Origin: a virus
Strand: one strand, 5' to 3'
DNA: 21,086 nt
Virus record (IMG/VR): IMGVR_UViG_3300025669_002485
Coordinates: 1-21,086 of that record
Under the pieces are notes generated by a model. That model was not told the origin of the DNA. It was given only the letters and a program-made list of their open reading frames with translations, and ran no database searches. The first letter of the stretch is position 1. Each line of letters starts with the position of its first letter. Of this stretch, positions 794-21,019 are shown in pieces. The translations under genes and the position numbers were made by a program.

Positions 794-3790
794 ATGTTAG
801 ACAATACACAATATTTAATTAGTTTTGTAGCAACTGTTCAGGGTGGTAAAATAGCAATCAGTCAACTTCAACAGATGGAACAAACTACTGGTAAATTGGA
901 TAAAGGTATGGTAAAAGCTGGAAAGAGTGCTAATAATTTCTCTCGTATGCTTAAACGCAGTGCTATGGTTATACCTCTTTGGTTTGTATTAAGAAGAGTT
1001 TTTATGGGCATTATGAACACTATTACTAATATGGTTAAATCTTGGTTAGAGTTAGATGATGCTTTAGCAAGAATTAAAACAGTAGTTTCTGCTTCGTCTA
1101 AGTCAATAGAAGCAGATATGATAGCTATTAGACGAACCATTTTAGATACTGCTGTGACAACAAGAGTTTCTATAAAGGAATTATCTGAAACTTTTTATTT
1201 CCTTAGAACTGCTGGATTATCTACTCAAGAAGCAATAGGGGCATTTAAACCTACTGTAGATGCTATGGTAGGAACAATGAATAGTGGGAAAGACACTGCA
1301 AGACTTATGGCAGGTGTTTTTAACACTATGGGAAAATATATAGGAGATAATCTTACAGTAACAGAAAAATTTACAAGAATAGCAGATGTATTAACTTATA
1401 CTTATGCAACTCAGGATGTTCAGCTTCAGGAATTAACCCAATCCTATATGAAATTAGCTCCTTATACTGCTGGAATGTCTGATAGTTTTTTAGAGATGAT
1501 TACAATGTTAGGATTTTTAAATACTCGCTTGTTGCGTTCAGGAAGAACTGGACGATTAACTGGTAGGGCATTTATACAAATAACTAAAAATGCAGATAAA
1601 TTGGCTGGTATTTTTGATGTTACATTTGAGTCAGACAAACCTCTTGGTTTTTTAGACATTATAGGACAAATACATGACAGAATAGGAACAACAGGCAAAA
1701 TATCAGCAAAAGCATCCAAGGCTTTAGAGCAAGTGTTTATGACAAGAGGAGCAGTTGCTGTTAGGTTATTAATAGAAAATTTTGAAGAATTAAAAGAGGA
1801 AATCGGATTGGCAGGAGAAAGCTCTAAAGATTTTGCTAAAAGAATGCGAGAGATTAGAGAAGCTACAGTCACTGCTCAATTTGAAAAAATGAGAAATATT
1901 TTACATACTATGTTTGCAGAGTTTATGAGTGGATTTATGGCTACTGGAGATTTGACTGAAGCTTTAAAAGAGTTTAATGATGGTTTAACATCTTCAATCC
2001 AATCAATCAAAACCTTTGGTTCATGGGTGGGGTGGCTTCAAACCCAAATGTCTCAACTTATATTGGGGATTATGGCATTGCAAAATATAAGACAAAGAGT
2101 GGCACTTGGAGAAATAGGATTTGGGGAAGGAATAGCAGAATATGCCAAATGGCTTCGTGAATCTAAAATTGAACTTATAAGTTTTGCTGAGTGGCAACAA
2201 AGAATAAAAGAAGAGCAAGAAAAAATGAAAGAGATAAGAGAAGAGGAAGTGAAAGTTCAAGAAAAACTTGTCAAGCAAGAAAAAGACCTCCTTACAGATA
2301 TGGAAATTATTTCTTCAGGATTAAGCACTGAATTGAACATAATGAAGGCATTAGAAAACACCCAGTTGAGCATACTAAAGATGAAAAAAATGCAACTCGA
2401 ACTTGATTTGGCTGGATTGGATTCAGACAAGAAAGAGATAGAGTTAGAGAAGGTGCAAGGAAAGATAACAGTAGAAACAATAAAACAACATAAGAAATTG
2501 GCAGATACTTATTTGAAAGCAGAACTTGACATACTGAAAACTATGGGTGTTCATCAACTTGACATACTCGAATATGAATTGAAAATTTTAGAAGGAAGTA
2601 AGAATTTAGTAGATTCTCGTAAACGTCAAGAGAAAATGGGAAAAGTCAGAACTAAACTGGCTAAAATAGAGAAACAATGGGGTGATAAATTAGGAAAAGG
2701 TTTGTGGGAGTCAGTTGATGCTCATTATAAGATGACTAAGGAGCAACTATATGAATTGGAGTTGGCAGAAGCATTGTCTGGGGTTGAGGGAGAAAAGCTA
2801 AGAATAGAGGAATTGAAATTACTAACGACAAAGGAACGTGTTAATCTTCTTGGCTACTATTCACAAGTTTATGCAACTCAAGAATTGAATATGGCTAAGG
2901 CTTTAGGGGCTAGTGAGTTTCAGATATTGCAAATAGAAAGGGAACAGTTAGAAGCAAGAAGAGACCAACTTCTTCCTTTAGCATATCAAGCAAAACTATT
3001 GAAAATTATAAATAAAGAGGAAATTTTACGAGCAAAAACCTTACTTAACCAACTTTCTACATATGGTGATATAATGAAAGAGTTTGAAAAGGCAACTCCA
3101 TTGGAAAGACCTATGCTATTGAAAAGGATTCAAATGCAACGAATGTCACCTGAAGAACTTTATGGAGAGATTAAAGGTTCTGCTTATATTGAAAAAATAT
3201 GGCATGATAACATGGATAAATTTAGTGAGATGCAAAATCTTATGGCAAAAAAGGCTAGTGCAGAGGCAAATAGACTTGATATTTGGAAAGTTGCATTTCC
3301 AGACCCCAAACAAACTGAGTATGATATTAAAAGACATGGGCAAACCATGATTACAGAGGCAGAACTATTTCTTAGTAACTTTGCTGAACTTTATGCAAAG
3401 GCAAAAGGAAAGACGGATGTTCGAGAACAACTTGTGGATTTATTTGCACCTTCTAAAGCAACAGCATTTTGGGCTACTTGGACAGACAGAGCATTAGAAG
3501 CAGTTCAAGCATTTAAAACAGCATATCAAAATGCTATTGAAATAACTCCAAAAGGAAAAGGTGCTGAAGCAGAAGGTGTTGGTCTAAAATCGCAAATTAT
3601 TAAAAACTTAGAACTTTTTATCAAAGGTAAACCAGTTGCTCAAATGACTATTGAAGCAATGACTATCCAATTACCTCCAGATACATTGGAGAGAGTATCA
3701 TTTGAGACTGCAAGTATAGTAGAAAGAAGATTAAAAGAAAATGAGGATTTACAAAAATTTTTAGCGGATGTCATCAGACCACATCTTTAA
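794..3790 (+). CDS. Phage tail tape measure protein, TP901 type
   Basis: The 998-residue protein scaffolds assembly of the long tail tube and sets its length. Residues 80-360 resemble the core of the TP901/PhageMin_Tail family: ELSETFYFLRTAGLS near 129-143, a conserved region with TRIADVLTYTYATQDVQL at 194-211, and a Gly/Arg-rich stretch around 250-260. A hydrophobic helix lies at 57-78. From about 465 to 760 the chain is mostly charged heptad-like helix, as expected for a rod filling the tail lumen. By the usual length rule for siphophage tape measures (about 0.15 nm per residue), the tail would be near 150 nm. The start is set by GGAAG nine nt upstream, immediately after the preceding stop. 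The size and neighbours argue for a long-tailed phage. The family call is firm. I see no lytic transglycosylase or peptidase motif in it. Confidence 0.93.
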   Translation: MLDNTQYLISFVATVQGGKIAISQLQQMEQTTGKLDKGMVKAGKSANNFSRMLKRSAMVIPLWFVLRRVFMGIMNTITNMVKSWLELDDALARIKTVVSASSKSIEADMIAIRRTILDTAVTTRVSIKELSETFYFLRTAGLSTQEAIGAFKPTVDAMVGTMNSGKDTARLMAGVFNTMGKYIGDNLTVTEKFTRIADVLTYTYATQDVQLQELTQSYMKLAPYTAGMSDSFLEMITMLGFLNTRLLRSGRTGRLTGRAFIQITKNADKLAGIFDVTFESDKPLGFLDIIGQIHDRIGTTGKISAKASKALEQVFMTRGAVAVRLLIENFEELKEEIGLAGESSKDFAKRMREIREATVTAQFEKMRNILHTMFAEFMSGFMATGDLTEALKEFNDGLTSSIQSIKTFGSWVGWLQTQMSQLILGIMALQNIRQRVALGEIGFGEGIAEYAKWLRESKIELISFAEWQQRIKEEQEKMKEIREEEVKVQEKLVKQEKDLLTDMEIISSGLSTELNIMKALENTQLSILKMKKMQLELDLAGLDSDKKEIELEKVQGKITVETIKQHKKLADTYLKAELDILKTMGVHQLDILEYELKILEGSKNLVDSRKRQEKMGKVRTKLAKIEKQWGDKLGKGLWESVDAHYKMTKEQLYELELAEALSGVEGEKLRIEELKLLTTKERVNLLGYYSQVYATQELNMAKALGASEFQILQIEREQLEARRDQLLPLAYQAKLLKIINKEEILRAKTLLNQLSTYGDIMKEFEKATPLERPMLLKRIQMQRMSPEELYGEIKGSAYIEKIWHDNMDKFSEMQNLMAKKASAEANRLDIWKVAFPDPKQTEYDIKRHGQTMITEAELFLSNFAELYAKAKGKTDVREQLVDLFAPSKATAFWATWTDRALEAVQAFKTAYQNAIEITPKGKGAEAEGVGLKSQIIKNLELFIKGKPVAQMTIEAMTIQLPPDTLERVSFETASIVERRLKENEDLQKFLADVIRPHL

Positions 3791-3805
3791 AGGAGAAAAT
3801 AAATC

Positions 3806-4231
3806 ATGGCGAATTATACTGTAAAATTGACGTTTTTGTCGTCAGAGTCAGGAAGTGTAGAATATGAGTTTCCTCATTTACAACATCTTTCCGACCCAGA
3901 AAGTGGGATGAAAGCAACTGTGATTAAGGGAAATAGAGCAGATGGGTCTTTGGTCATTCCTGGAGGAAAAAAAAGTCCTCAAATTCAAGTGAGAGGTAAA
4001 TTGTTTGATAATGATGGTTATGCTGATATAACAAGTCTAATGAATGCTATGAGAAGTGATGTAGACACAGCACAGGGGACTTTAACACTTAAACATCGTC
4101 CTCTCACGGGAGGGGATTGGTCTACGGTCTGGAGCTATACGGTGAGGAGGCTTGATGAAATTCGCTTCCCACAGTCAATGAGAACAGGTGTGCAGGAATA
4201 TGAATGCACATTTTTAATTTTGGCTTTTTAA
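3806..4231 (+). CDS. Short distal-tail-like (Dit/belt) protein
   Basis: The 141-residue protein is almost entirely beta-strand-like. It has a Gly/Pro turn with GGKKSPQIQVRGKLF near 53-67 and ends in a strand run, RTGVQEYECTFLIL. Size, predicted fold and position right after the tape measure fit the N-terminal belt domain of Dit proteins, which form the ring between tail tube and tail tip in siphophages. I saw no exact family signature, so the role rests on position and beta content. A good ribosome binding site (AAAGGAG, ten nt spacing) fixes the start. The stop is followed after three nt by the start of an inserted endonuclease gene. Without that insert, it would sit directly upstream of the gene at 4992. 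Confidence 0.7.
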   Translation: MANYTVKLTFLSSESGSVEYEFPHLQHLSDPESGMKATVIKGNRADGSLVIPGGKKSPQIQVRGKLFDNDGYADITSLMNAMRSDVDTAQGTLTLKHRPLTGGDWSTVWSYTVRRLDEIRFPQSMRTGVQEYECTFLILAF

Positions 4232-4234
4232 TAA

Positions 4235-4975
4235 ATGAAGAATTATTGCATAGATTGTCTTAACAAAGGAATTAAGACTGAAATTAGTTTAAAAGTGAAA
4301 CGATGCCAGTCTTGTGCTCAGAAAAATAGATTTAAAAATAAAGAAAATCATCCTTTTTTTGGTAAGAAACACAGCGAAACTCATAAAAAGAGAATTAGTA
4401 AAACACTGAAAAAAGCTTATAAAGAAGGGAGAAAAAAAGTTTGTCATACTAAAAAATCTAAGAAAATAATTAGCGATAAAGCTAAAGAAAGATTTAAAGA
4501 CCCTACAAAACATCCGAATTTCAAAGATGGACGAACTTTACAAAAATATTACTGTAAAGAACCCGATTGTAATAGAGAGATAAGTTTATGTTCTGCTTTA
4601 TATCATCAAGGTAGATGTCAAAGTTGTGCAAAAAAAGGAAAACTTGGTTATTGGTATGGTAAAAAACGTCCTGAACATAGTAAAAAAATGTCAGGTAAAG
4701 GAAGTCCAACTTACATAGATGGAAAAGGTAATGACCCTTATCCTTTAGAATTTAATAATAAACTCAAGGAACAAATTCATAAAAGAGATAATCATAAATG
4801 CCAAGTTTGTAATAAATCTCAATTAGAGAAAGGTAAAAAGTTATCAACTCATCACATTGATTATAACAAGGAAAATAATAAAGAAGATAATTTAATTTCT
4901 TTATGCCAAAATTGTCATGTAAAGACAAATTATAATAGAAAAGTTTGGAAAAAATATTTTAAAATAAAAGAATAA
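4235..4975 (+). CDS. HNH homing endonuclease with zinc-finger and NUMOD3 DNA-binding modules
   Basis: This 246-residue, very Lys-rich free-standing endonuclease is the type that mobilises its own gene within phage genomes. Visible order: a Cys4 module (C5, C8, C24, C27), a NUMOD3-like motif at 41-58 (GKKHSETHKKRISKTLK), a linker with DGR near 98-100, a second Cys4 module (C107, C112, C128, C131), a second NUMOD3-like motif near 141-154, then an HNH domain. The HNH domain has C189/C192 and C224/C227 zinc pairs, catalytic H206-H207, N219 and H228. It sits between two tail genes. No ribosome binding site precedes its ATG, only TAATAA, and an in-frame stop lies just upstream, so translation probably depends on re-initiation after the upstream gene. 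The Cys4 modules closely resemble those of the minus-strand endonuclease at 12096-12818. Confidence 0.92.
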   Translation: MKNYCIDCLNKGIKTEISLKVKRCQSCAQKNRFKNKENHPFFGKKHSETHKKRISKTLKKAYKEGRKKVCHTKKSKKIISDKAKERFKDPTKHPNFKDGRTLQKYYCKEPDCNREISLCSALYHQGRCQSCAKKGKLGYWYGKKRPEHSKKMSGKGSPTYIDGKGNDPYPLEFNNKLKEQIHKRDNHKCQVCNKSQLEKGKKLSTHHIDYNKENNKEDNLISLCQNCHVKTNYNRKVWKKYFKIKE

Positions 4976-11391: not shown

Positions 11392-12096
11392 TTAATTTTC
11401 TCTTATCCTCCATAACATTCTTATAAACCGCAAAGTATCCCTAAAAGGATGTATCTTACTCTTTCTTCCTTTTTCATAAATACACTTGATTGGCACACTT
11501 GTAATTTCTCCTCCTGACTTTCCTACTCTAATTAACATTTCACTTTCCCACTCAAATCTATCACTTCTAAATTGTAATTCAAACACACTTTTATGCACTA
11601 ATCTAAATCCGCACTGGGTATCAGGAATATTACGACCAGCCAAAATACTGATAATTTTACTCATAAACTTATTGGTTAATCGTCTAATTAAAGGCATTCC
11701 TACAGGGTTATGGAAACGATTTCCTACTATTATTTTAGCTTGAGGTCGTTGTTTAAGTGTTTCTATAAATTTGGGAATATCTCTAATATCGTTTTGTCCG
11801 TCACTGTCAAAAAATAAAACATAGTCCGTTTCTAATCCATTATAATATTTCTTAGTAGCTGTAGCGTAAAAAGCTCCTTGACGCATTGCAAACCCTTTAC
11901 CCATGTTGTTTGTGTATGAAATAAGGTTAAAATTAGTCCACTTTTGAACTGTTTTTAAATAAGTAAGAGAATTATCAGTTGAACCATCATTTACTATAAT
12001 ATACTTATAACCACTTCTCCATAATCTTCCACATAAATCTACAATGTGTTTTTCTTCATTAAATACAGGACTAATAATTACAATTTTAAAATTCAT
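11392..12096 (-). CDS. GT2 family glycosyltransferase, polyprenyl-phosphate sugar transferase-like
   Basis: A 234-residue single-domain GT-A enzyme that should move a sugar from a nucleotide donor. It resembles the dolichyl/polyprenyl-phosphate mannosyl or glucosyl transferase branch of GT2. Visible motifs: PVFNEE (10-15), VNDGSTDNS (35-43), GKGFAMRQGA (66-75), DSDGQND metal-binding motif (97-103), GNRF (125-128) and DTQCGFR (159-165). There are no C-terminal membrane helices, so it would be soluble or peripherally bound, unlike GtrB-type enzymes. The start overlaps the preceding gene's stop by one nt (TAATG), with AGGAG seven nt upstream inside that gene. It is the last gene of the minus-strand operon. 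Acceptor and sugar cannot be read from the sequence. Confidence 0.93.
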   Translation of the reverse strand: MNFKIVIISPVFNEEKHIVDLCGRLWRSGYKYIIVNDGSTDNSLTYLKTVQKWTNFNLISYTNNMGKGFAMRQGAFYATATKKYYNGLETDYVLFFDSDGQNDIRDIPKFIETLKQRPQAKIIVGNRFHNPVGMPLIRRLTNKFMSKIISILAGRNIPDTQCGFRLVHKSVFELQFRSDRFEWESEMLIRVGKSGGEITSVPIKCIYEKGRKSKIHPFRDTLRFIRMLWRIREN

Positions 12097-12818
12097 TATA
12101 ATACTCCTAATTCCTCTAAATCCTCTTTCATTAAAACTTTAATGTTCTTATTTGGGTATAATTTTCTAAATTGTCTAAACTTCTTTTTTGCTATATCTCT
12201 CCAATATCCTTTAATTTCAATGTAAGTATCAAACTCTGGCAAATAGAAATCAGGACGATAAGTCATTTCATCCAAGTCAAATGCCTTGGGTTCGTATAAC
12301 CACTTTATTTTATTACAATCCAAAAAGAAAGCAAATTTAATTTCGTAAGAAGACCTCATCCAAATTCCTTTATAATAATCTCCTTTTCCTCTACCTATAT
12401 GTTTATTATTATATATTTTTCCATAAGCAGAACTTTTTTTCCCAGAATAATATTTAGAATTACAATTATGACATCTTTTAGCTCTACAAACTATTTCAAT
12501 TTTTATCCCTTTCTCTAAGCAATCTATACAATAATTTATTTCTCTATATTTTAATTTACCACTTTTAAAACAATATTTAACTGCACAACTTGGACATCTT
12601 CCCCCTCCATAAATTCCACTTTGCCAATTTATTTCCTCTCCACAGTCTGAGCAATAATAAGTCTTGGAACATCTACCATCTATTAGACCATGTTTATTTC
12701 CTTTCATTCTTTTACTATTAATTTTCCCATTACATTTTCTACATCTCCCCTGTCCATACAAAGCAGTTTGATAACAAACTTCATTATCACAACCTTCTTC
12801 TATACAATAATGTTTCAT
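12096..12818 (-). CDS. Zinc-finger array PD-(D/E)XK endonuclease, mobile-type
   Basis: A 240-residue protein with three Cys4 modules in a row (C5/C10/C26/C29; C56/C59/C75/C78; C97/C100/C116/C119). A C-terminal Vsr-like or PD-(D/E)XK nuclease core follows: E159 in SSYEIKFAF, then RPDFYLP with D190, and IEIKG with E201 and K203. Such zinc-finger nucleases occur as free-standing homing endonucleases in phages. The first Cys of each module follows Tyr or an aromatic pair, and the second pair is in a G/K-R-C-x2-C context. Modules one and two are separated by an H...DGR....YYC linker that also occurs in the HNH enzyme at 4235-4975. The gene is integrated by a 4-nt ATGA overlap upstream and a TAATG overlap downstream. 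This is tighter than expected for a recent insertion. A repair-type Vsr role is an alternative. Confidence 0.85.
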   Translation of the reverse strand: MKHYCIEEGCDNEVCYQTALYGQGRCRKCNGKINSKRMKGNKHGLIDGRCSKTYYCSDCGEEINWQSGIYGGGRCPSCAVKYCFKSGKLKYREINYCIDCLEKGIKIEIVCRAKRCHNCNSKYYSGKKSSAYGKIYNNKHIGRGKGDYYKGIWMRSSYEIKFAFFLDCNKIKWLYEPKAFDLDEMTYRPDFYLPEFDTYIEIKGYWRDIAKKKFRQFRKLYPNKNIKVLMKEDLEELGVL

Positions 12819-13285
12819 TTTACTTCTTCTACTATTTTTGCTTTTTCAATATCTTTTGGAGTAGTTTTAAATATGTTCTGGTCTTTTCTAATATCTCTAT
12901 TCACAACTGAGAAACATAAATTTATAAAACTACAACAATTAATAAATGCTGTAGCTTTACCTCTCCAATTCAAATAAGCATTATAAAGATATGCTAAATA
13001 AGAATATTTATCTCCCATTTGAGCTTCTGCACAATAAATAATCTTCTCTTTTTCTTCTTCTGTTAATCCATTTATTCTTAACAATTTAGTTTTATATAAA
13101 AATTTATTTGAGTATTTAGTAATTTTACTTTTTTTAATTCCGTTTCCTTTAGCCCCTATTGTAAATTTATCATTTATGATTAACTCTACATGGTTATAAT
13201 TACATTTTGAGACTTTACGAATTAGGAAACCTATAAAATCGAAGTAATAACATACTAAAAGAATATCACAAGATTGTAGGGTCAT
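12815..13285 (-). CDS. Permuted papain-like (YiiX/NlpC-P60 type) cysteine hydrolase
   Basis: A 156-residue protein resembling the circularly permuted papain-like amidases (YiiX/YaeF, C92 type). These carry the catalytic His before the Cys. Here the N-terminal strand with CDILLV is followed by NHVELII (H32), and the Cys lies in NCCSFINLC (C117 or C118). The family commonly has Glu or Gln after Cys-Ser, and here it is Phe. That may alter activity. It has no signal peptide. Family members act on peptide or lipid-linked amide bonds. In a phage, lysis, DNA-entry or host-surface roles are possible but unproved. The gene overlaps its neighbours by ATGA on both sides, with AGGAA before the start, so it is part of the glycan operon. 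Confidence in the fold is moderate. Confidence 0.65.
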   Translation of the reverse strand: MTLQSCDILLVCYYFDFIGFLIRKVSKCNYNHVELIINDKFTIGAKGNGIKKSKITKYSNKFLYKTKLLRINGLTEEEKEKIIYCAEAQMGDKYSYLAYLYNAYLNWRGKATAFINCCSFINLCFSVVNRDIRKDQNIFKTTPKDIEKAKIVEEVK

Positions 13286-13596
13286 TTTAATATTCCTAAT
13301 ACTATTATATGAAAACTTTGGTCATATACCAAATTTAACCACATAGGCAAAGATTTGTTTTTAGGATTTATTAAGTTAGGATAAATCTTCTTTCCAATTC
13401 CAAAATAGTCAATTATAAAGTGAGTTATGAAAACTATTGCAAGTTTATTAATTTCCCAATGTGAGAATAACCAAATCCCAAAAGTATATAATAAACAATG
13501 TAATATCATAGAAAAAATTGATTGTATTTTAGTTCTTGCCAACCAGTCATTTTGTAAAAGAAAATCACCAAATAAATGCCCTGCTAATAAATTCAT
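13282..13596 (-). CDS. DUF3307 integral membrane protein
   Basis: A 104-residue hydrophobic protein matching DUF3307, a small membrane family common in phages, plasmids and bacteria, with no known function. The conserved pattern is present: H7 and GDFLLQ (10-15), W18, K23, HCLLYT (33-38), HFIIDY (59-64) and the late DQSFH (92-96). Hydrophobic stretches at about 28-44, 51-65 and 88-103 suggest three helices. The reiterated His and Asp residues hint at a metal- or proton-binding site in the membrane. AAGGAG lies about ten nt before the start. It overlaps both neighbours by ATGA. Placement next to a papain-like hydrolase and glycan enzymes suggests an envelope-linked job. Confidence 0.85.
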   Translation of the reverse strand: MNLLAGHLFGDFLLQNDWLARTKIQSIFSMILHCLLYTFGIWLFSHWEINKLAIVFITHFIIDYFGIGKKIYPNLINPKNKSLPMWLNLVYDQSFHIIVLGILK

Positions 13597-14324
13597 TGTA
13601 ATTTCTCCTTTATGTATTCTCTCAACTCATTTTGGTCATAAGTATGTTTGTCTAGCATTTTAAAGAAAGTAGAATAATCTATTTTAGGAAAGGTAGGGAT
13701 GCGACTGTCAGGTGAAACATTGTATATGCGAATTTTCTTTTCATTTTTATAGACGGAAAAATCTTTTTTTGCACGGTCTTTTGCATTATAGTAATTTATC
13801 TTGCCCGTGCCCCGATGGGTTAATTCCTCCTGATAAAAATGTGTGAGATACTTCTTCCCACTTTTATCTACTATTCTAGCTTGTTCAATAGCTCGTAAAT
13901 CAGATTTATCATAACCCTTTTTTCTGGCTTCTCCATAATCAAATCCGAGCAGGAAGCAAATGCCAGAATCTAATATATGTATTCCCAAAGATAAACTGAA
14001 AATTCCTACCAAACTTGATTTATAACACCCTTTCCTAACATCTCTATTATACTTGCTAGTGCCTTGTAAGAAAATAGTATTAGGAAGTTTACCTTCTTTG
14101 AAGCGATGAGTTTTACCGATTATCAGGGGTAATTTGGCTAATTCTTCTCTCTGTTGGTCGTAGAAAGTGCGGTCTACATAGCATAATATCGTGGAATCAA
14201 AGTAATTGAAGCTGTAGTTTAAGCCTATTGTAAACCTTCCCTTTAGCTTATCCCAAAGTCCCATAGAGAGTGCAGGTTTAATGCTTGAGCCTCCACCTAT
14301 TATGATAAGTTGATTTGGGTTCAT
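13593..14324 (-). CDS. DUF115-like glycosyltransferase-fold protein
   Basis: A 243-residue protein resembling DUF115/MptE-like and sialyltransferase-like (GT42 type) folds. Features are a Gly-rich nucleotide loop IIGGGSS (8-14), GLNYSFNYF at 34-42, YVDRTFYDQ at 49-57, and the C-terminal SGICFLLGFDYGE at 120-132. The last matches the typical strand ending in LLGFD of these families. It would bind a nucleotide or nucleotide-sugar and transfer a sugar or pyrophosphoryl group. DUF115 proteins are recurrent in phages and in flagellin or surface glycosylation loci. The start uses AGGAA ten nt upstream and comes after a 60-nt gap, the longest in the operon. It may therefore have somewhat independent translation. 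The fold call is moderate and the reaction is not established. Confidence 0.65.
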   Translation of the reverse strand: MNPNQLIIIGGGSSIKPALSMGLWDKLKGRFTIGLNYSFNYFDSTILCYVDRTFYDQQREELAKLPLIIGKTHRFKEGKLPNTIFLQGTSKYNRDVRKGCYKSSLVGIFSLSLGIHILDSGICFLLGFDYGEARKKGYDKSDLRAIEQARIVDKSGKKYLTHFYQEELTHRGTGKINYYNAKDRAKKDFSVYKNEKKIRIYNVSPDSRIPTFPKIDYSTFFKMLDKHTYDQNELREYIKEKLQ

Positions 14325-14384
14325 TTATTTATTGTTCCTATGTTTTAATTTGTTACTGTTTTAGTAATAAAATGGAATATAAGT

Positions 14385-15032
14385 TCAATTATTTGTTTTT
14401 ATCCATTCTTTATTGTGCCTGTTTTTTAGCCTTCGAGATGCCTGGTTATGGTAAATTACAATATCCTTTTCTTTTAACATATGTAGGGGCAAAGTATTAT
14501 TTTGATTAGGAAACACTATGTAGCTATAAGGCAATTCATAAACTTTCAAATCCTTCCTTCTATTTACAACTACTTCCATACTTCTCTGCTCTATGGTATT
14601 TGGGCTTTTGGAAATTTCTTCAATGAACTCCTCCACTAACCCAATTACCTTTGAATTGTAATTTAGATACATTGTGCCACTAAGAAGATGAAATTTATTC
14701 CCATCCTTTTGTTTTCGCCACCTCCACATCCAGTTCAAAAAATGCACACCAATATCGTATTCATTAGGAATCTCCCAGAAAAGAGAAGGATACTTTTTTA
14801 CTTCAGCATCTGAATCAAGGAACACAATACTTGACCCCTCATGTTTATGAAGCATTTTAAGAATAAATTCCGACTTATAGCTCGTATTAGCTTGCCATGA
14901 ACCTCTATCTTCAGGATACTCTATATCATATTCCAAATTAAACTTCTTTAAAGATGGAATTAGAAATTTATTTATTACATCAATATAAGGAGTTTCTGCT
15001 GTCGCATATGAACAAAAAATAATCTTCTTCAT
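14385..15032 (-). CDS. GT-A fold nucleotide-sugar transferase
   Basis: A 215-residue protein with a GT-A-like arrangement: an N-terminal strand KKIIFCSYAT, a long helical segment, then SIVFLDSDAEV with the D73-x-D75 metal-binding motif. An acceptor-loop-like LLSGTMYLNYN (116-126) and a C-terminal YHNQASRRLK (194-203) follow. This organisation resembles the nucleotide-diphospho-sugar transferases of the PF03407-like type. No membrane segment is seen. Its ATG overlaps the upstream methyltransferase stop by ATGA, with AAAGGAT upstream. Together with the GT2, DUF115-like and capsule-type genes it makes the fourth sugar-transfer candidate in the operon. The family call is by motif only. Substrate and linkage are unknown. 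Confidence 0.75.
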   Translation of the reverse strand: MKKIIFCSYATAETPYIDVINKFLIPSLKKFNLEYDIEYPEDRGSWQANTSYKSEFILKMLHKHEGSSIVFLDSDAEVKKYPSLFWEIPNEYDIGVHFLNWMWRWRKQKDGNKFHLLSGTMYLNYNSKVIGLVEEFIEEISKSPNTIEQRSMEVVVNRRKDLKVYELPYSYIVFPNQNNTLPLHMLKEKDIVIYHNQASRRLKNRHNKEWIKTNN

Positions 15033-15775
15033 TTCTTTATCCTTTTATCTACTGTTACTTTTCCGTGAAAACAATATTGATAACCTACTTCCCCATATTC
15101 ATCGTAAGTGGTTGTTTTATAAATTCCCCTTCTTTTCCAATCATCATTACTAATCATTTTACCACAAGGACAAATTATTCCATGTTTCATTTCTTTAGGA
15201 ACTCTTACCAAACAAATAAGATTAAACCCATTTAATCTATCAGGAACTTTCTCTAAAGATACTAATTCTAATCCAATCTTTTTAACATAATTTCTTATTT
15301 CTTTTTCACTAAAATGTTCCCAATGCCATTTAGAACGTTTTACAGGAATGCTTATATGAGGCACAGAGAAAATTAAGTATTCCTTAGTCCATTCTTTAAA
15401 TTTATCAAATAATTTATCAATATCTTTTATATGTTCCACTATCTCAAAAGCAACCACAACATCATACTTTTCTTTAATGTCAAAAACATCTCCACAAAGA
15501 TAGTTTATGTTTTTTCTTTTCCAATAAACATTGGCATAATCTATAGCTTCTTTACTATCGTCTATTGCTATTACCTTTCTTGCCTTGTTTGCTAATAAAA
15601 CACTCCCATAACCACATCCACAACCCAAATCTAATACTGTGTCAGTATTTTTAACTATTGTATAGGCTCTTTTATATCTATCTATATGAGTGGGTTCTAT
15701 TTTGTCTAAAGAAATTGCTACTTGTCTTTCTCCAGAATTTAATCTTTTATCTTGGTCTTTTCTTTGTTCGTTCAT
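15029..15775 (-). CDS. Class I SAM methyltransferase with C-terminal cysteine motif
   Basis: A 248-residue SAM-dependent methyltransferase of the Methyltransf_11/23 type. Motif I is VLDLGCGCGYGS (47-58), the acidic ribose contact is IDDSKEAI (71-78), then CGDVFDI (94-100), with FEIVEHI at 110-116 as the post-motif. After the Rossmann core comes a 50-residue extension with CPCG (202-205) and a later YCFHG (234-238). This is a possible small metal-binding finger not usual for the family. The first 30 residues include SGERQVAIS, reminiscent of O-methyltransferases in polysaccharide loci. It overlaps both neighbouring genes by ATGA. The acceptor is not evident; a sugar hydroxyl or carboxyl is likely in this context. 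Confidence 0.9.
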   Translation of the reverse strand: MNEQRKDQDKRLNSGERQVAISLDKIEPTHIDRYKRAYTIVKNTDTVLDLGCGCGYGSVLLANKARKVIAIDDSKEAIDYANVYWKRKNINYLCGDVFDIKEKYDVVVAFEIVEHIKDIDKLFDKFKEWTKEYLIFSVPHISIPVKRSKWHWEHFSEKEIRNYVKKIGLELVSLEKVPDRLNGFNLICLVRVPKEMKHGIICPCGKMISNDDWKRRGIYKTTTYDEYGEVGYQYCFHGKVTVDKRIKK

Positions 15776-16818
15776 TTTCTTGTTCCTATTAATACAAAAT
15801 ATCCTCTAACTTTATGCTTATAAACTTTAACATTAAATCCTGCTTCAGTAAATAATTTTCTTACACTTATTTCTCGATTTAAAGCCAAACTATTAATTTG
15901 ACTTCTTCGTTCTTTTGCTCTTGTTGGAATGACTACTACTTTGCATAAAGGTAATATTTTTTCTTTTAATAATTTTATTTCTTCATTGTTCATATGATAT
16001 AAAACAAAAGAAGCAACCAAAGCATTGCAAGTTGGTTTATTATTCAAAGCATAATTCTTGAAACTGGTATTGTAAAGTTTTACTTTTTCATTATTTCCCC
16101 ACAGTGATTTTATACAATCCACAGTTATTTGAGCTTGTTTATAATATTTCTCTTGCTTTTCTAAGGCAATAAGACTTTTAGCATGTTGCATAATAGACCA
16201 AATAAACATACCTGCATTGCATCCTATATCCAAAACTCTACATCCATCTAAAACAGATAAATGTTTGGAAGCAAAATCAAGACGTTGTTTTACATTTCCA
16301 TGTGTATGATAAGGTTTAATAGCTTTATCCCATTTCTTGGCAATTTTACTATGAATTATTTCAGGGATTATGGTATCTTTTATTGCTTTAAGATTACCAA
16401 AATTATAATCAGGATGACTATAAACAACATCTACAGGAATTTCTTTAATACCTAATTGTTGGGCACAGAACAATCTATGTCGCCCATCAACTAATAAAAT
16501 ATCTCCATCTCTTCCAATAGCAACTTCCACACTTCTCATGTTTGGGTTTTGAATGTAACCTTTTGTTTTAATGTTTTCATACAAACCTTCCCAATTATAA
16601 ACAGATTTTTTACCTGATTTAAACAATAAAAAATCCCTATGAAATCTACTATCATAAATTGTTTGCTTGGTTGTATCCCAACTACCTGTTAAAATCTCTC
16701 CAATTAATTTAAACTTTTTTTCATTAATTCTTCTTACTCTAGTAGTTATACACCCACCTATTGGAGAAACTCTTTTTACTACCTTTGGGTCTATAAATAT
16801 CTCATTTTTCTTTCTCAT
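15772..16818 (-). CDS. ParB-like domain fused to SAM methyltransferase
   Basis: A 348-residue two-part protein. Residues 97-131 carry a ParB/sulfiredoxin-fold signature: VEVAIGRDGDILLVDGRHRL with the conserved DGRHR at 111-115, followed by ALG-type and IPVDVVY strands. Residues 190-345 are a methyltransferase, with VLDIGCNAG (195-203), an acidic ribose contact at E220 and a VLYHMNNEEI-like catalytic loop. ParB-like folds include nucleotide- and ATP-binding enzymes as well as DNA-binding proteins. In polysaccharide loci such fusions may act as small-molecule kinases or modifying enzymes, not in chromosome partition. I infer a carbohydrate role here from the neighbours. GGAGG near the start supports translation one nt after the radical SAM gene. 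It shares ATGA with the next gene. Confidence 0.82.
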   Translation of the reverse strand: MRKKNEIFIDPKVVKRVSPIGGCITTRVRRINEKKFKLIGEILTGSWDTTKQTIYDSRFHRDFLLFKSGKKSVYNWEGLYENIKTKGYIQNPNMRSVEVAIGRDGDILLVDGRHRLFCAQQLGIKEIPVDVVYSHPDYNFGNLKAIKDTIIPEIIHSKIAKKWDKAIKPYHTHGNVKQRLDFASKHLSVLDGCRVLDIGCNAGMFIWSIMQHAKSLIALEKQEKYYKQAQITVDCIKSLWGNNEKVKLYNTSFKNYALNNKPTCNALVASFVLYHMNNEEIKLLKEKILPLCKVVVIPTRAKERRSQINSLALNREISVRKLFTEAGFNVKVYKHKVRGYFVLIGTRK

Positions 16819-16819
16819 A

Positions 16820-18091
16820 CTATTGTTTCCTCCATTTTTTAATATTTACTCGTAATTGTTTCATAAATTTTACAAACTCTACTTTACTAATACTATCATT
16901 TGTGTATAACCAATTACTATCAAGGTCTCCAGGATGTATTTGTATTCTTGAAAAGTCCATATCCAAAGACACTTTGCCCTTTTCATACATTCTTTGCCAT
17001 AATGGACTCCCTGGAAGTGGTTGGCAACAATATTGCATGAAAGATTTAAACTTGTGTTTTCCATTCCATTTTTTAAGAAATTCACTTGTCTTATTCATAC
17101 TCTCTAATGTCTCTCCAGGATAACCCCATACAGAAGAAGCCCCTGACCTTATTCCATGTTTACCAAATAAAGTAATACAATTTTCAAAATCTTTAGTAGT
17201 CACTCTACCTTTTTTCATTGCATTTAATATTTTCGGTGAGGCAGATTCTAATCCAAATCCTGCTAATTTTAATCCCAAGTCCTTTAATACTCTTACAATG
17301 TCATCAGTTACCAATTCAGAATTAACAGAACCTTTCACTATCTTAACTTTACCTAATAGATTTCTTTTATTTAATTCTTCTTTTAATCCTACTACTTTCT
17401 TCAAATTAAAAAAAGAAATGTCATCCAAAAAAACATAATTAGTCTTACCACTTTTTTTATAATGAGTTTCTATTATATCCACCAATCTTTGAGGAGATAA
17501 ATATCTAAAGGGTCTCCAAATAGCCTGTTCAGAACAATGGTCACAGTTATTTACACATCCTCTTGTTGTTAGTATTGCAACAGCGTCTCCGAAGTCGTAT
17601 TTAATCTGGGGATAAATTGGAATGGGCAATTCATCCATAGGAAGTGGCTTTCTTGATTTGTTAATTATTATTCTATTACCATCCCAAAATGAAATTCCAT
17701 CAACTTCTTCTAAACAACCCATTTTGTATTTCTCTATGTGCTTTAATAATTCTACTATTGTTACTTCTCCTTCTCCTAATATTCCTATATCCACCTCTTT
17801 GGACATGGTTAGAGGCAGGGCTGTGATGTGAGTTCCTCCCATAATTATCAAAGAACCCAATTTGTCCTTGGTTTCTTTAGCTAATCTTTTAGCAATCATA
17901 TAGGATTCAGTAGCAGAAGAAATTCCAACTATATCAGGCTTAAATTTAACTATCTCATCTAAGGAATAACAAATCTTAATATCTATATCTAATTTAGCCT
18001 CTCTCATACTTGCTATGAGATAATCAAATGTTACTGAATGACTCTTTCTCTGTCTCTCATGTAAAAATACTTTAATTAATGCTAATTTCAT
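16820..18091 (-). CDS. Radical SAM protein with cobalamin-binding-type N-terminal domain
   Basis: A 423-residue protein of the B12-binding plus radical SAM architecture. The N-terminal Rossmann-like domain has DIVGISSATESY (53-64), LIIMGGTHITALP (81-93) and VDIGILGEGE (100-109). These match the cobalamin-domain pattern GG-x-H-x-T-x-x-P and GEGE. The radical SAM cluster motif is C179-x3-C183-x2-C186 in RGCVNNCDHC. SAM-binding elements follow: LKLAGFGLESAS near 275 and a later GYPGET. Such enzymes form 5'-deoxyadenosyl radicals and, with cobalamin, methylate unreactive carbons or phosphorus, or rearrange substrates. No DxHxxG cobalamin-ligand motif is seen, as in many members. AAGGAG precedes the start. 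It is one of two adjacent radical SAM genes. The reaction is unknown. Confidence 0.93.
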   Translation of the reverse strand: MKLALIKVFLHERQRKSHSVTFDYLIASMREAKLDIDIKICYSLDEIVKFKPDIVGISSATESYMIAKRLAKETKDKLGSLIIMGGTHITALPLTMSKEVDIGILGEGEVTIVELLKHIEKYKMGCLEEVDGISFWDGNRIIINKSRKPLPMDELPIPIYPQIKYDFGDAVAILTTRGCVNNCDHCSEQAIWRPFRYLSPQRLVDIIETHYKKSGKTNYVFLDDISFFNLKKVVGLKEELNKRNLLGKVKIVKGSVNSELVTDDIVRVLKDLGLKLAGFGLESASPKILNAMKKGRVTTKDFENCITLFGKHGIRSGASSVWGYPGETLESMNKTSEFLKKWNGKHKFKSFMQYCCQPLPGSPLWQRMYEKGKVSLDMDFSRIQIHPGDLDSNWLYTNDSISKVEFVKFMKQLRVNIKKWRKQ

Positions 18092-18103
18092 TTCTTTTTC
18101 TCC

Positions 18104-19135
18104 TTATCTTATTTGCATGTTATACTCTAAAGGACTCTTTCCGTCATAAAATTTAGTTCCAGGAAAAGCTTGAAATTTGTAAAAACCACCTACAATCAAT
18201 TTTCCTTTATTTATTTTTATAAAATTCTTAGTTGCCTCAACATCTTCCCTTGTTTCTTGTGGGAAATCATGTATGAAAGAAGCAGAAATACTTAATCCTG
18301 CTCTATTTGCTATGTCTATGGTTTTCTGATTATCCTCTACAGTGGCTTGCTTGTTGTAAATTTTAAGTATCCTATTACTTCCACTCTCTGCCCCAAACTT
18401 TATCCTTCTACATCTCATTTCCTTGAGCATTTTGGCTTTCTCTTCTGTTAATAATTTCGCCCTCACTTGGATTTCAAGATAAAGTCTTTTGTTGAATTCT
18501 TCCCTCATCCACAATTCATAAAATTCATTGAATCTTTTAGTATTAGCTATAAATAAATCATCCTGTAAATAAACTATCATTGCATGGGGATTATTTTTGA
18601 AAACCTGCTTTATTTCTTTTATTATGTATTGTGCACCATGAAATCTTGCCCTTTTCCAATAGGTATGTGAGGAGCAATAATAGCAATTAAAAGGACATCC
18701 TCTTGAAGTCATAAAGGACATTAATTTAGTAGGACATTTTCCCCTAAATGGATGTTTTATAGTGTCTAAATTCTCTATTAAAGGTTCTCTTATTATTTTA
18801 GTTTCCACTTTATTATCTATAATCTTTTGAAAAGCATTTTCACCTTCTCCTATCACTATATGCTTAAAAGGATAATCTTTTAATCCTTCCCAAAGAGTCC
18901 CCTGCCCACCTATTACAATTGGAATTTTAGTTGAATCAAGAATAAGTATTGCTTCTTTTAATCCTTGCACTACACTTGATAGTCCTATTAAATCACAGTC
19001 TTTCAATTCCTCTCTATTCTTAATTATTTCAATGTCAGCATTAATACAATTAGATTTTAAATAACCAAGCCCCAAAGGGTATTCAGAGTATCTATTATTC
19101 AGTTCCCCACCACATTGATAAAGTTTAATTTTCAT
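18104..19135 (-). CDS. Radical SAM protein with shortened cobalamin-type domain
   Basis: A 343-residue protein. Residues 20-110 look like a reduced cobalamin-binding-type Rossmann domain: YPLGLGYL, DLIGLSSVVQ (48-57), IPIVIGGQGTLWEGL (71-85) and HIVIGEGENA (92-101). His-Thr of the longer paralogue's GGTHIT is absent here (GGQGTL). The radical SAM motif is C147-x3-C151-x2-C154 in RGCPFNCYYC, followed by RIKFGAESGS near 241-250 and FIHDFPQET around 288-296. It starts inside the upstream chimera gene with an 11-nt overlap and a weak ribosome site (GGAA), so it is probably translationally coupled. It has the same overall plan as the radical SAM gene at 16820-18091 but is only distantly similar to it. 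The reaction is not identifiable. Confidence 0.92.
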   Translation of the reverse strand: MKIKLYQCGGELNNRYSEYPLGLGYLKSNCINADIEIIKNREELKDCDLIGLSSVVQGLKEAILILDSTKIPIVIGGQGTLWEGLKDYPFKHIVIGEGENAFQKIIDNKVETKIIREPLIENLDTIKHPFRGKCPTKLMSFMTSRGCPFNCYYCSSHTYWKRARFHGAQYIIKEIKQVFKNNPHAMIVYLQDDLFIANTKRFNEFYELWMREEFNKRLYLEIQVRAKLLTEEKAKMLKEMRCRRIKFGAESGSNRILKIYNKQATVEDNQKTIDIANRAGLSISASFIHDFPQETREDVEATKNFIKINKGKLIVGGFYKFQAFPGTKFYDGKSPLEYNMQIR

Positions 19136-19835
19136 ATACTTTTTCCATAATTTTATACATTTCCATTTCTGTAAGGATAATCTTGGTCTTACTTGGTTTA
19201 AGATTTATCGAGTAAATATATTTCTCCAAAGGCAGTTCACAATAAGTGAATATTTTCTTTAGCTCTTTAGCAGGGTTATTAATTAAGTCCAAATAATTTA
19301 AGGTATAAAAATCTGTATTTTTTCTACATTTCTCTACATAGTCTATAGTTTCATTCCATTTATTTATAACCTCTTCCAACTTAAATTTTGGAACTCTATG
19401 TTTGAATGAATTAATAACTCCTATTGGATTCCTATAAATTGCTATTATTTTGGGTTCTAGAAAGATTTTAGGAAGTATTGAAACAGCAAAGGAAAGTGCA
19501 GGTGCTTTTAGAAGGAGTCTTTTCTCTTCAAGATTTTTGCTTACTTCTTTTCTTATTTTCTCTCTAATTGCTCGGTAAGGAGATACAAAAGAAGCTAATA
19601 CCCAAATACCTTGTTTTAAAAATAATTTAGATAATTCAGTTACTCTTCTTAAATTCTCATTCCTATCTTCTTTTGAAAATCTCAAATCTTTCCATAATTT
19701 ACCTCTCACAATATCCCCATCTAATCTTTGATTAGATATGTTCATTGTGTTTAATACTTTGGACAATTCATCCATAAGAGTAGTTTTCCCACTACAAGGA
19801 ATTCCAGTAGCCCAAATCAAATATGCTTTATTCAT
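19125..19835 (-). CDS. APS kinase-sulfotransferase chimera
   Basis: A 236-residue fusion. Residues 1-98 follow adenylylsulfate kinase (CysC): Walker A GIPCSGKTT (11-19), LDGDIVR (38-44), FSKEDRNEN (53-61), RR at 63-64 and SFVSPYR (82-88). CysC normally continues into a substrate-lid third with CEKRD and KGLYKKA motifs, which is absent here. Residues 105-236 instead look like the back half of a PAPS sulfotransferase: LLLKAPALSF (107-116), the 3'-phosphate-binding motif R135 to S143 in YRNPIGVINSF (same eight-residue spacing as in SULT enzymes), W160 and YLDLINNP (181-188). It would phosphorylate APS to PAPS and pass sulfate on. Whether each half is active is inference. It overlaps the upstream capsule-type gene by ATGA and the downstream radical SAM gene by 11 nt. 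Confidence 0.85.
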   Translation of the reverse strand: MNKAYLIWATGIPCSGKTTLMDELSKVLNTMNISNQRLDGDIVRGKLWKDLRFSKEDRNENLRRVTELSKLFLKQGIWVLASFVSPYRAIREKIRKEVSKNLEEKRLLLKAPALSFAVSILPKIFLEPKIIAIYRNPIGVINSFKHRVPKFKLEEVINKWNETIDYVEKCRKNTDFYTLNYLDLINNPAKELKKIFTYCELPLEKYIYSINLKPSKTKIILTEMEMYKIMEKVYEN

Positions 19836-21019
19836 ACTCCTAATCTTCTCCGAATACGAATTCTATCTCTCTTAACGAAATGTCTATTATATAAAAATCT
19901 GTAAAAATATAAGAACCATAATTTCATCTGGTTTACATTGATAATGTATTCAGGGTTTTCTTTTACTTTTTTCCAATTTAAACTGTTAGAATATTCCAAA
20001 GTAAATCCCTTCTGAGAAAAATAGGCATCACCAAAGACTACAACTGGTTTTTCTAATAAACATGCCTCTAAACCGCACTGAGAGGTATTAACGAACACTA
20101 AATCGGCTCTTTTGATTAGTTCTTGTGTATTAATAGTTTGGTCTTTAAATCCACTTACTATTACAACATTTTGGGGCTTTTTCTGTTTTTCTAACCATTT
20201 CCCTGTTTGTCCCCATTTTCTATGATGATACTTATCTTCTTTGGGATGACATTTTAAAATTACATTCCAATCCTTAAATTCTGTCTCAGCCAGTTCAAAA
20301 ACTCTTTTAATAAAAGTCTCATTGTTAAATTGAGAATCATACAAAGTAACTTGGTCTGCATAAACCTGAAGAGGAACAAAAATAGTTTTATCATACTTTA
20401 AAGTTGGTAATTTTCTTTCAGAAGGAGTAGGATAATTAAGAGATTCAAATACCTTTTTTATAATTTCATCGACTTCTTTTTCTCGTTCTGGAGTTAGCAC
20501 TCTCGTATCCAGCCAGTCCTGAGAGCATCTGGCAAACAAATGTCTATTAACTATGAAACCAGTATCAAAATCAATAAAAATCTTATCTTTGATAAAGGAA
20601 TTTTCAATAGTAATTATACCTATTCCCATCTCCCTTGCTACCTCTGCACAAGCCCTTGCATAATAAGTTAATCCTCCTTCTATCATTATATAATCGGGGT
20701 TTTCTTCTTTGAATGTTTTAAAACACCAATCTATTATAGCCATTGTCCTTTTAATCCATTTAACTTCCATTGCTTTATTATTACCATACCAATTTATCTC
20801 TCTTGCCATTGCTACTTTTATCATGTTTCTCAAATTAAATCCTTTATGATAAGGGTCTGCTGTTTCTGGTAAGGGCATTTCAAAGACTCTCATACCTCTA
20901 CCTACCTTGCCAGGTTCTATTCTCTTGAGTTCTACCCCACTTTTTTTAAGAAAAGCAAATTGATGTTTATTCTTGGGGAATACCCAACACATCCAATCCA
21001 AAAGAATTATTTTTCTCAT
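19832..21019 (-). CDS. Capsule polysaccharide synthesis-type glycosyltransferase
   Basis: A 395-residue protein with the Capsule_synth (KpsC/KpsS/LipB-like, PF05159) signature in its second half: IFVPLQVYADQVTLYDSQF (213-231), VILKCHPKE (253-261), then INTQELIKRADLVFVNTSQ and CGLEACLLEKPVVVFGDAYF (296-334). The first half, with YIMIEGGLTYYARACAEVA near 110-128 and ITIENSF, is a Rossmann-like donor or acceptor domain. Members transfer Kdo or other sugars during capsule or lipopolysaccharide export. It is the first complete gene of the minus-strand operon. GGAG lies seven nt upstream of the ATG, and its start overlaps the stop of a truncated upstream gene (ATGA). Donor sugar is not readable. 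The absence of Wza/KpsM-type export genes in the window is noted. Confidence 0.88.
   Translation of the reverse strand: MRKIILLDWMCWVFPKNKHQFAFLKKSGVELKRIEPGKVGRGMRVFEMPLPETADPYHKGFNLRNMIKVAMAREINWYGNNKAMEVKWIKRTMAIIDWCFKTFKEENPDYIMIEGGLTYYARACAEVAREMGIGIITIENSFIKDKIFIDFDTGFIVNRHLFARCSQDWLDTRVLTPEREKEVDEIIKKVFESLNYPTPSERKLPTLKYDKTIFVPLQVYADQVTLYDSQFNNETFIKRVFELAETEFKDWNVILKCHPKEDKYHHRKWGQTGKWLEKQKKPQNVVIVSGFKDQTINTQELIKRADLVFVNTSQCGLEACLLEKPVVVFGDAYFSQKGFTLEYSNSLNWKKVKENPEYIINVNQMKLWFLYFYRFLYNRHFVKRDRIRIRRRLGV

Follow-up and report, generated by a model that had tools for sequence, protein, structure and literature searches.

A phage gene joining APS kinase and sulfotransferase halves

One open reading frame in a viral genome segment begins as the N-terminal half of a PAPS-producing enzyme and continues as the C-terminal half of a PAPS-consuming one. 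PAPS, the carrier of activated sulfate, is produced by APS kinase (CysC) and consumed by sulfotransferases, and P-loop folds are found in both. The segment analyzed here, referred to as the window, is a complete IMG/VR virus record of 21,086 bases, the left part of which carries tail genes, among them one for a tape measure protein; as related contigs are much longer, reaching 104 kb, the record is probably a fragment. The chimeric gene has the coordinates given in an earlier note on this DNA and is read on the minus strand, from 19835 to 19125; the plus strand of this region is full of stops (Table 1).

Profile searches with the whole chain identified APS_kinase (PF01583) at residues 4-102 (103.6 bits, E=1.4e-29, profile positions 2-100 of 152), Sulfotransfer_3 (PF13469) at residues 90-204 (41.1 bits, E=3.1e-10, profile positions 86-215 of 216) and Sulfotransfer_1 (PF00685) at residues 102-218 (34.6 bits, E=1.8e-8), all three above their Pfam gathering cutoffs (27 bits for Sulfotransfer_3 and 22 bits for Sulfotransfer_1). 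Each half was also matched when searched separately (APS_kinase 1.4e-29, Sulfotransfer_3 9.7e-10, Sulfotransfer_1 8.8e-9), and the matches to both families are far beyond chance. The earlier note's description of a CysC front and a sulfotransferase back within 236 residues is borne out by these results, as is its observation that the last part of CysC is missing. The score of the NCBIfam apsK model (TIGR00455; 109.3 bits) fell below the curated cutoff of 138.7, as expected from the missing C-terminal half of CysC, and phmmer searches against PDB sequences reached significance for the CysC half only.

The two halves share one frame and both have the codon style of their neighbors, with own-frame scores of 0.56 and 0.43 against 0.22-0.57 for ten neighboring genes. 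The gene is the second of a minus-strand run and overlaps the upstream gene by 4 bases and the downstream gene by 11 bases, indicating that it is part of a tight operon.

Table 1. Coordinates of the chimeric gene and surrounding features in the window.
Feature	Position	Strand	Evidence or remark
Capsule_synth (PF05159) protein, upstream neighbor	19832..21019	-	1.6e-20
Chimeric ORF, CysC N-half and sulfotransferase C-half	19125..19835	-	236 aa; ORF and Pfam
CysC-derived half, residues 1-98	19542..19835	-	Pfam, conserved-column comparison
Sulfotransferase-derived half, residues 99-236	19128..19541	-	Pfam on fragment alone, shuffling z scores
Radical SAM/B12 protein, downstream neighbor	18104..19135	-	55% identical homologue in G015 cassette
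Rest of glycan-type cassette: two radical SAM genes, two methyltransferases, glycosyltransferases, DUF3307 etc.	11392..19135	-	

Elements retained and lost from the two parent families

Residues 1-98 share with CysC (PF01583, TIGR00455), especially with its 'GLPCSGKTT' clade, a Walker A motif (GIPCSGKT, G11-T18), LDGD (38-41), FSKEDR (53-58), EN-RR (60-64) and SPYR (within SFVSPYR, 82-88). The APS-binding segments FS-EDR-EN-RR and SPY/SPYR are represented by F53, R58, N61, R64, S85 and P86. Near-invariant columns were defined as those with at least 88% conservation among 78 non-redundant CysC proteins from the loci analyzed. Of the 26 such columns in the N-terminal half, the chimera keeps 23, the exceptions being I12, M21 and R52. 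Sixty-six of the 78 proteins themselves depart from none or one of these columns and 8 from three or more. Matched by motif, Lys456/Ser457, Asp478/Asp480, Phe492 and Arg497 of Mycobacterium tuberculosis CysC (PMC4373884) correspond to K17/T18, D39/D41, F53 and R58 of the chimera, and all are kept. Identity of this half to phage and bacterial CysC reaches 50-56%, and its nearest viral relatives (53-56%) are ordinary CysC proteins. A tree of N-terminal halves grouped the chimera, which had a long branch, with CysC proteins of the 'PCSGKTT' clade, but support for this placement was weak.

Some members of this phage and bacterial clade, several of the nearest viral relatives among them, possess a membrane-like N-terminal segment. 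On four phage CysC proteins (L008:4767-5519, L091:4752-5519, L012:4764-5507 and L110:4764-5522) this extra segment is about 70 aa long; we take it to be DUF2061-like, with no Pfam hit for the segment, and through it the synthesis of PAPS would be anchored at the membrane.

The APS-kinase lid, RDxKG…FTG, is present in the 78 CysC proteins compared and absent from the chimera, and all 13 conserved columns of the C-terminal half of CysC (R, D, K, G ... F, T, G ... E, P) lack a counterpart. Compared with CysC, the chimera is thus without the RDxKG lid, the FTG segment, and the CysC strands 4 and 5. In the M. tuberculosis enzyme the lid provides Arg559, which stacks against the adenine of ATP, Lys562, which has a role in the transition state, and Phe576, which stacks against APS; a single lid change, Cys556Ser, results in loss of activity (PMC4373884). 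With the equivalents of Arg559, Lys562 and Phe576 gone, conversion of APS to PAPS by the chimera is unlikely.

The second half carries an intact R-x7-S 3'-phosphate motif (R135, S143), as well as K110-x-P112, W160, YLDL (181-184) and NP (187-188); the residue numbers that the earlier note gives proved correct. These marks (K-x-P, R-x7-S, W, Y-x-D-L...NP) are shared with PF13469 and PF00685 proteins, short phage ones included (L091:9349-9936). Unlike those proteins, the chimera is all CysC before about residue 100, and the strand-loop-helix of the phosphosulfate-binding (PSB) region is replaced by the CysC Walker A. GIPCSGKT stands in place of the PSB loop GxP[RK]SGT, with Cys14 at the position of the catalytic Arg/Lys and Walker-A Lys17 alone left. 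Sulfotransferases have been defined by the PSB-loop Lys/Arg together with a serine of the PB helix (PMC11625862). For the catalytic base, a His or Glu of the acceptor pocket, no unambiguous equivalent was found in the alignments. Shuffling scores for this half were highest against an Omnitrophota sulfotransferase (z=13.7), followed by a marine-virus sulfotransferase (z=8.4) and the short phage sulfotransferase L091:9349-9936 (z=4.9; 29/108 identical). More of the sulfotransferase is retained than would be needed just to complete the CysC part: the K-x-P segment is included, and the third beta-alpha unit of both parents is therefore partly present.

Predicted structure of the chimeric protein

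An AlphaFold2 run based on an alignment of 6 CysC N-terminal halves and 16 sulfotransferases yielded one five-stranded P-loop domain (pLDDT 74.2, pTM 0.70). Strands β1-β3 (residues 6-11, 35-39 and 78-82) are modeled from the CysC half and β4-β5 (129-134 and 177-180) from the sulfotransferase half, with the doubled region of the third unit (residues 102-110, K-x-P) becoming a helix. In the model the R135/S143 site forms a strand-turn-helix (strand 129-134, helix 137-145). A second run, in which no alignment row spanned both halves, gave the same order of elements at lower scores (pLDDT 58.3, pTM 0.58); a 58-row mixed alignment was excluded from folding because its sulfotransferase rows were misplaced. 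Structural comparison (Foldseek/VIA) matched the model to whole APS-kinase chains across residues 1-204, the best alignment of the first model to a whole APS kinase covering residues 2-202 (Z 13.9, 3.5 A, 161 residues). In a viral structure library the best match was a phage sulfotransferase, and sulfotransferases were absent among the best 50 PDB matches, which does not exclude them. Together with the Pfam matches, the two models and the alignments to whole kinases are in keeping with the earlier note's proposal of one continuous P-loop core. They support, but do not prove, folding of the product as a single P-loop domain, since AlphaFold2 may favor a familiar P-loop layout.

Genomic context and origin of the chimera

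The glycan-type cassette downstream of the chimera is syntenic with related phages. Three contigs, G015 (L091/L243), G398 (L012/L245) and G011 (L008/L247), have tail genes in common with the window (58, 61 and 54% identity for the gene at 3806, and 36-38% for the gene at 6617), and also parts of the cassette. In G015 the order is Capsule_synth, a 196-aa sulfotransferase, ParB-methyltransferase, radical SAM, methyltransferase and radical SAM; in the window it is Capsule_synth, the chimera, two radical SAM genes, ParB-methyltransferase and methyltransferase. Identities between the two are 51.5% for Capsule_synth (L091:8130-9353), 50% for ParB-methyltransferase, and 55% and 66% for the radical SAM proteins. 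Given that a complete sulfotransferase (L091:9349-9936) directly follows Capsule_synth in G015, the chimera occupies the slot of a sulfotransferase gene.

Intact cysC genes, separate from the sulfotransferase genes, were found in L008, L091, L012 and a further phage contig, L110. The cysC gene lies between two sulfotransferase genes in L008, directly after one in L012 and directly before one in L110. It seems that this group of phages encodes PAPS synthesis and sulfate use of its own within the glycan cassette. Taken together, the chimera very probably arose naturally, when a cysC gene recombined with a sulfotransferase gene, both of them phage genes from the same glycan-decoration cassette. 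The C-terminal half only distantly resembles the sulfotransferase of the syntenic slot, which is hence no more than a candidate for the exact parent, and is closer to the Omnitrophota and the marine-virus sulfotransferase named above.

Two further features of the window were observed. Next to the chimera lie two genes for radical SAM proteins that bind B12 (16820-19135), a cargo seldom expected in the glycan cassette of a phage; their homologues in the related phage contig are 55-66% identical. Also identified were two zinc-finger/HNH-like proteins, probably homing endonucleases, one among the structural genes (4235-4975) and one in the glycan cassette (12096-12818), whose homologues are placed differently in related phages.

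Searches for further chimeras

The chimera had no counterpart in IMG/VR, in phages or plasmids, in 85k genomes covered by narrow pattern scans, or in about 680 whole genomes. Single-sequence scans of IMG/VR viral contigs returned plain CysC and no close relative of the chimera, a C-half single-sequence scan had no match in viral or genome contigs, and degenerate alignment scans of these contigs recovered relatives of the N-terminal half only. Likewise, no chimera was obtained by tblastn against phages and plasmids, or by whole-genome searches of 384 genomes with the C-terminal half and of 380, 16 and 285 genomes with the full chain. Scans with alignments of the neighboring genes found contig G015 alone, and a C-half alignment scan of viral contigs found one marine sulfotransferase and mini-kinase pair, neither yielding a chimera. 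Two sets of candidates were rejected upon closer inspection: plasmid matches extending to residue 189 were ordinary CysC/CysN with a weak extension, and in viral CysC-like proteins of about 250 aa that lack the lid (L023-L036 etc.) the C-terminal part is a nucleotidyltransferase (GRYQPWHEGH). Searches of openly accessible papers likewise brought up no description of a fusion between CysC and a sulfotransferase. By these searches the chimera appears to be a singleton in the collections covered; the pattern scans being narrow, the absence of a second one is not proven.

Proposed function and alternative explanations

The chimera is an unusual, singleton join, within one fold, of two known families, and its evolutionary setting is largely explained; its function is a prediction. 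As a whole, the best explanation, which we put forward tentatively, is a recombination chimera with a single P-loop fold that has lost kinase activity and binds PAPS as an unusual sulfotransferase. From the CysC half would come the phosphate-binding loop (G11-T18) together with the edge of the pocket formed by strands 2 and 3, and from the sulfotransferase half the 3'-phosphate site (R135, S143). PAPS or PAP would then be bound with its 5'-phosphosulfate on the Walker-A loop and its 3'-phosphate on R135/S143. Such a ligand is the most economical one, as the P-loop and the 3'-phosphate site are the two PAPS anchors of a sulfotransferase and both are retained. APS-kinase activity would have been lost together with the lid, and PAPS would be supplied by an intact CysC elsewhere or by the host. 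The protein may plausibly act in the cassette as a sulfotransferase, although Cys14 in place of the PSB Arg/Lys, the lack of an assignable catalytic base, its singleton status, the long branch of the N-terminal half with its departures at I12, M21 and R52, the weak likeness of the C-terminal half to the sulfotransferase of the syntenic slot and the low-scoring AlphaFold2 rerun count against this explanation. The earlier note's suggestion of a sulfotransferase with a borrowed kinase-like loop is possible, but with Cys14 at the PSB Arg/Lys position only Lys17 of the Walker A is left. That a working enzyme arose by a half-fold swap, combining a kinase Walker A and half an APS pocket with a sulfotransferase 3'-phosphate site, is a more doubtful proposition.

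The main rival, possible to much the same doubtful degree, is that the gene is an inactive or decaying relic of an accidental cysC-sulfotransferase fusion, still open and devoid of enzyme activity. Missing PSB Arg/Lys and a lack of relatives make this a serious contender: the catalytic sets of both parents are incomplete, the chimera is a singleton in all collections searched, and the long branch and the departures at I12, M21 and R52 are compatible with relaxed constraint. Conversely, decay fits poorly with 236 open codons in an AT-rich genome, overlaps with both neighbors and a codon style intact in both halves, or with retention of 23 of 26 near-invariant CysC columns, a complete 3'-phosphate motif and, as modeled, a plausible single fold. 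An unlikely alternative is a nucleotide-binding protein with another job, whether as a P-loop kinase or as a sensor or carrier of APS/PAPS, the sulfotransferase half standing in for the kinase lid. The chimera retains the Walker A of APS kinase along with its Mg ligand and LDGD base, and its model can be superposed on whole kinases, but lid residues for ATP stacking and stabilization of phosphoryl transfer are missing, and the intact 3'-phosphate motif favors a PAP/PAPS-type ligand.

Metagenomic origin, a single contig and the lack of a second copy might suggest an assembly artefact joining two genes, which is nevertheless very improbable given the in-frame join of matching fold elements, the uniform codon style across it, the overlaps with both neighbors and the recurrence of its flanking genes in an independent contig. 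Least credible of all is the earlier note's other suggestion, a bifunctional enzyme converting APS to PAPS and then transferring the sulfate in the same site: the P-loop survives along with half of the APS pocket (D41, F53, R58, N61, S85), and R135/S143 could hold the new 3'-phosphate, but the conserved lid, in which even Cys556Ser leads to loss of activity in M. tuberculosis CysC, is absent.

With both parents present as separate genes in related phages, the chimera offers a direct test of whether the halves can be exchanged, and of whether sulfate can be transferred at a Walker-A loop. If the half-fold swap did produce a working enzyme, APS kinase and sulfotransferase halves would be interchangeable, which fits the proposed kinase-like ancestry of sulfotransferases.

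Other associations of CysC-like and sulfotransferase genes

Several other arrangements of these families were observed. In marine viruses (L043, L052, L059, L067, L073, L074, L076, L264) a complete sulfotransferase gene is followed directly, at a distance of 0-30 bases and often with overlap, by one for a CysC-like mini-kinase of about 140-150 aa, in which an NADEMR-type sequence takes the place of LDGD and the RDPKG/FTG lid is missing. These pairs represent the same two protein classes as the chimera, but as separate adjacent genes with their own P-loops; the pair is recurrent, and its two proteins are possibly functional partners. A further group of phage proteins fuses CysC or a CysC-like kinase to an NMNAT-like nucleotidyltransferase with a GRWxPFHxGH-type motif, located at either end of the kinase (L088:4611-5531, L092:4626-5510, L021:4554-5549, L097:473-1444, L098:4983-5768 and L017:4977-5807). 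Finally, in Aminicenantes (L153, L158, L161, L162, L165, L167) a sulfotransferase of about 190 aa (GLPRSGTS) is encoded just before cysC, at about 3400-4000 in most, in an operon also holding an ATP-sulfurylase-like gene and UDP-sugar genes, which looks like a pathway for a sulfated polysaccharide.
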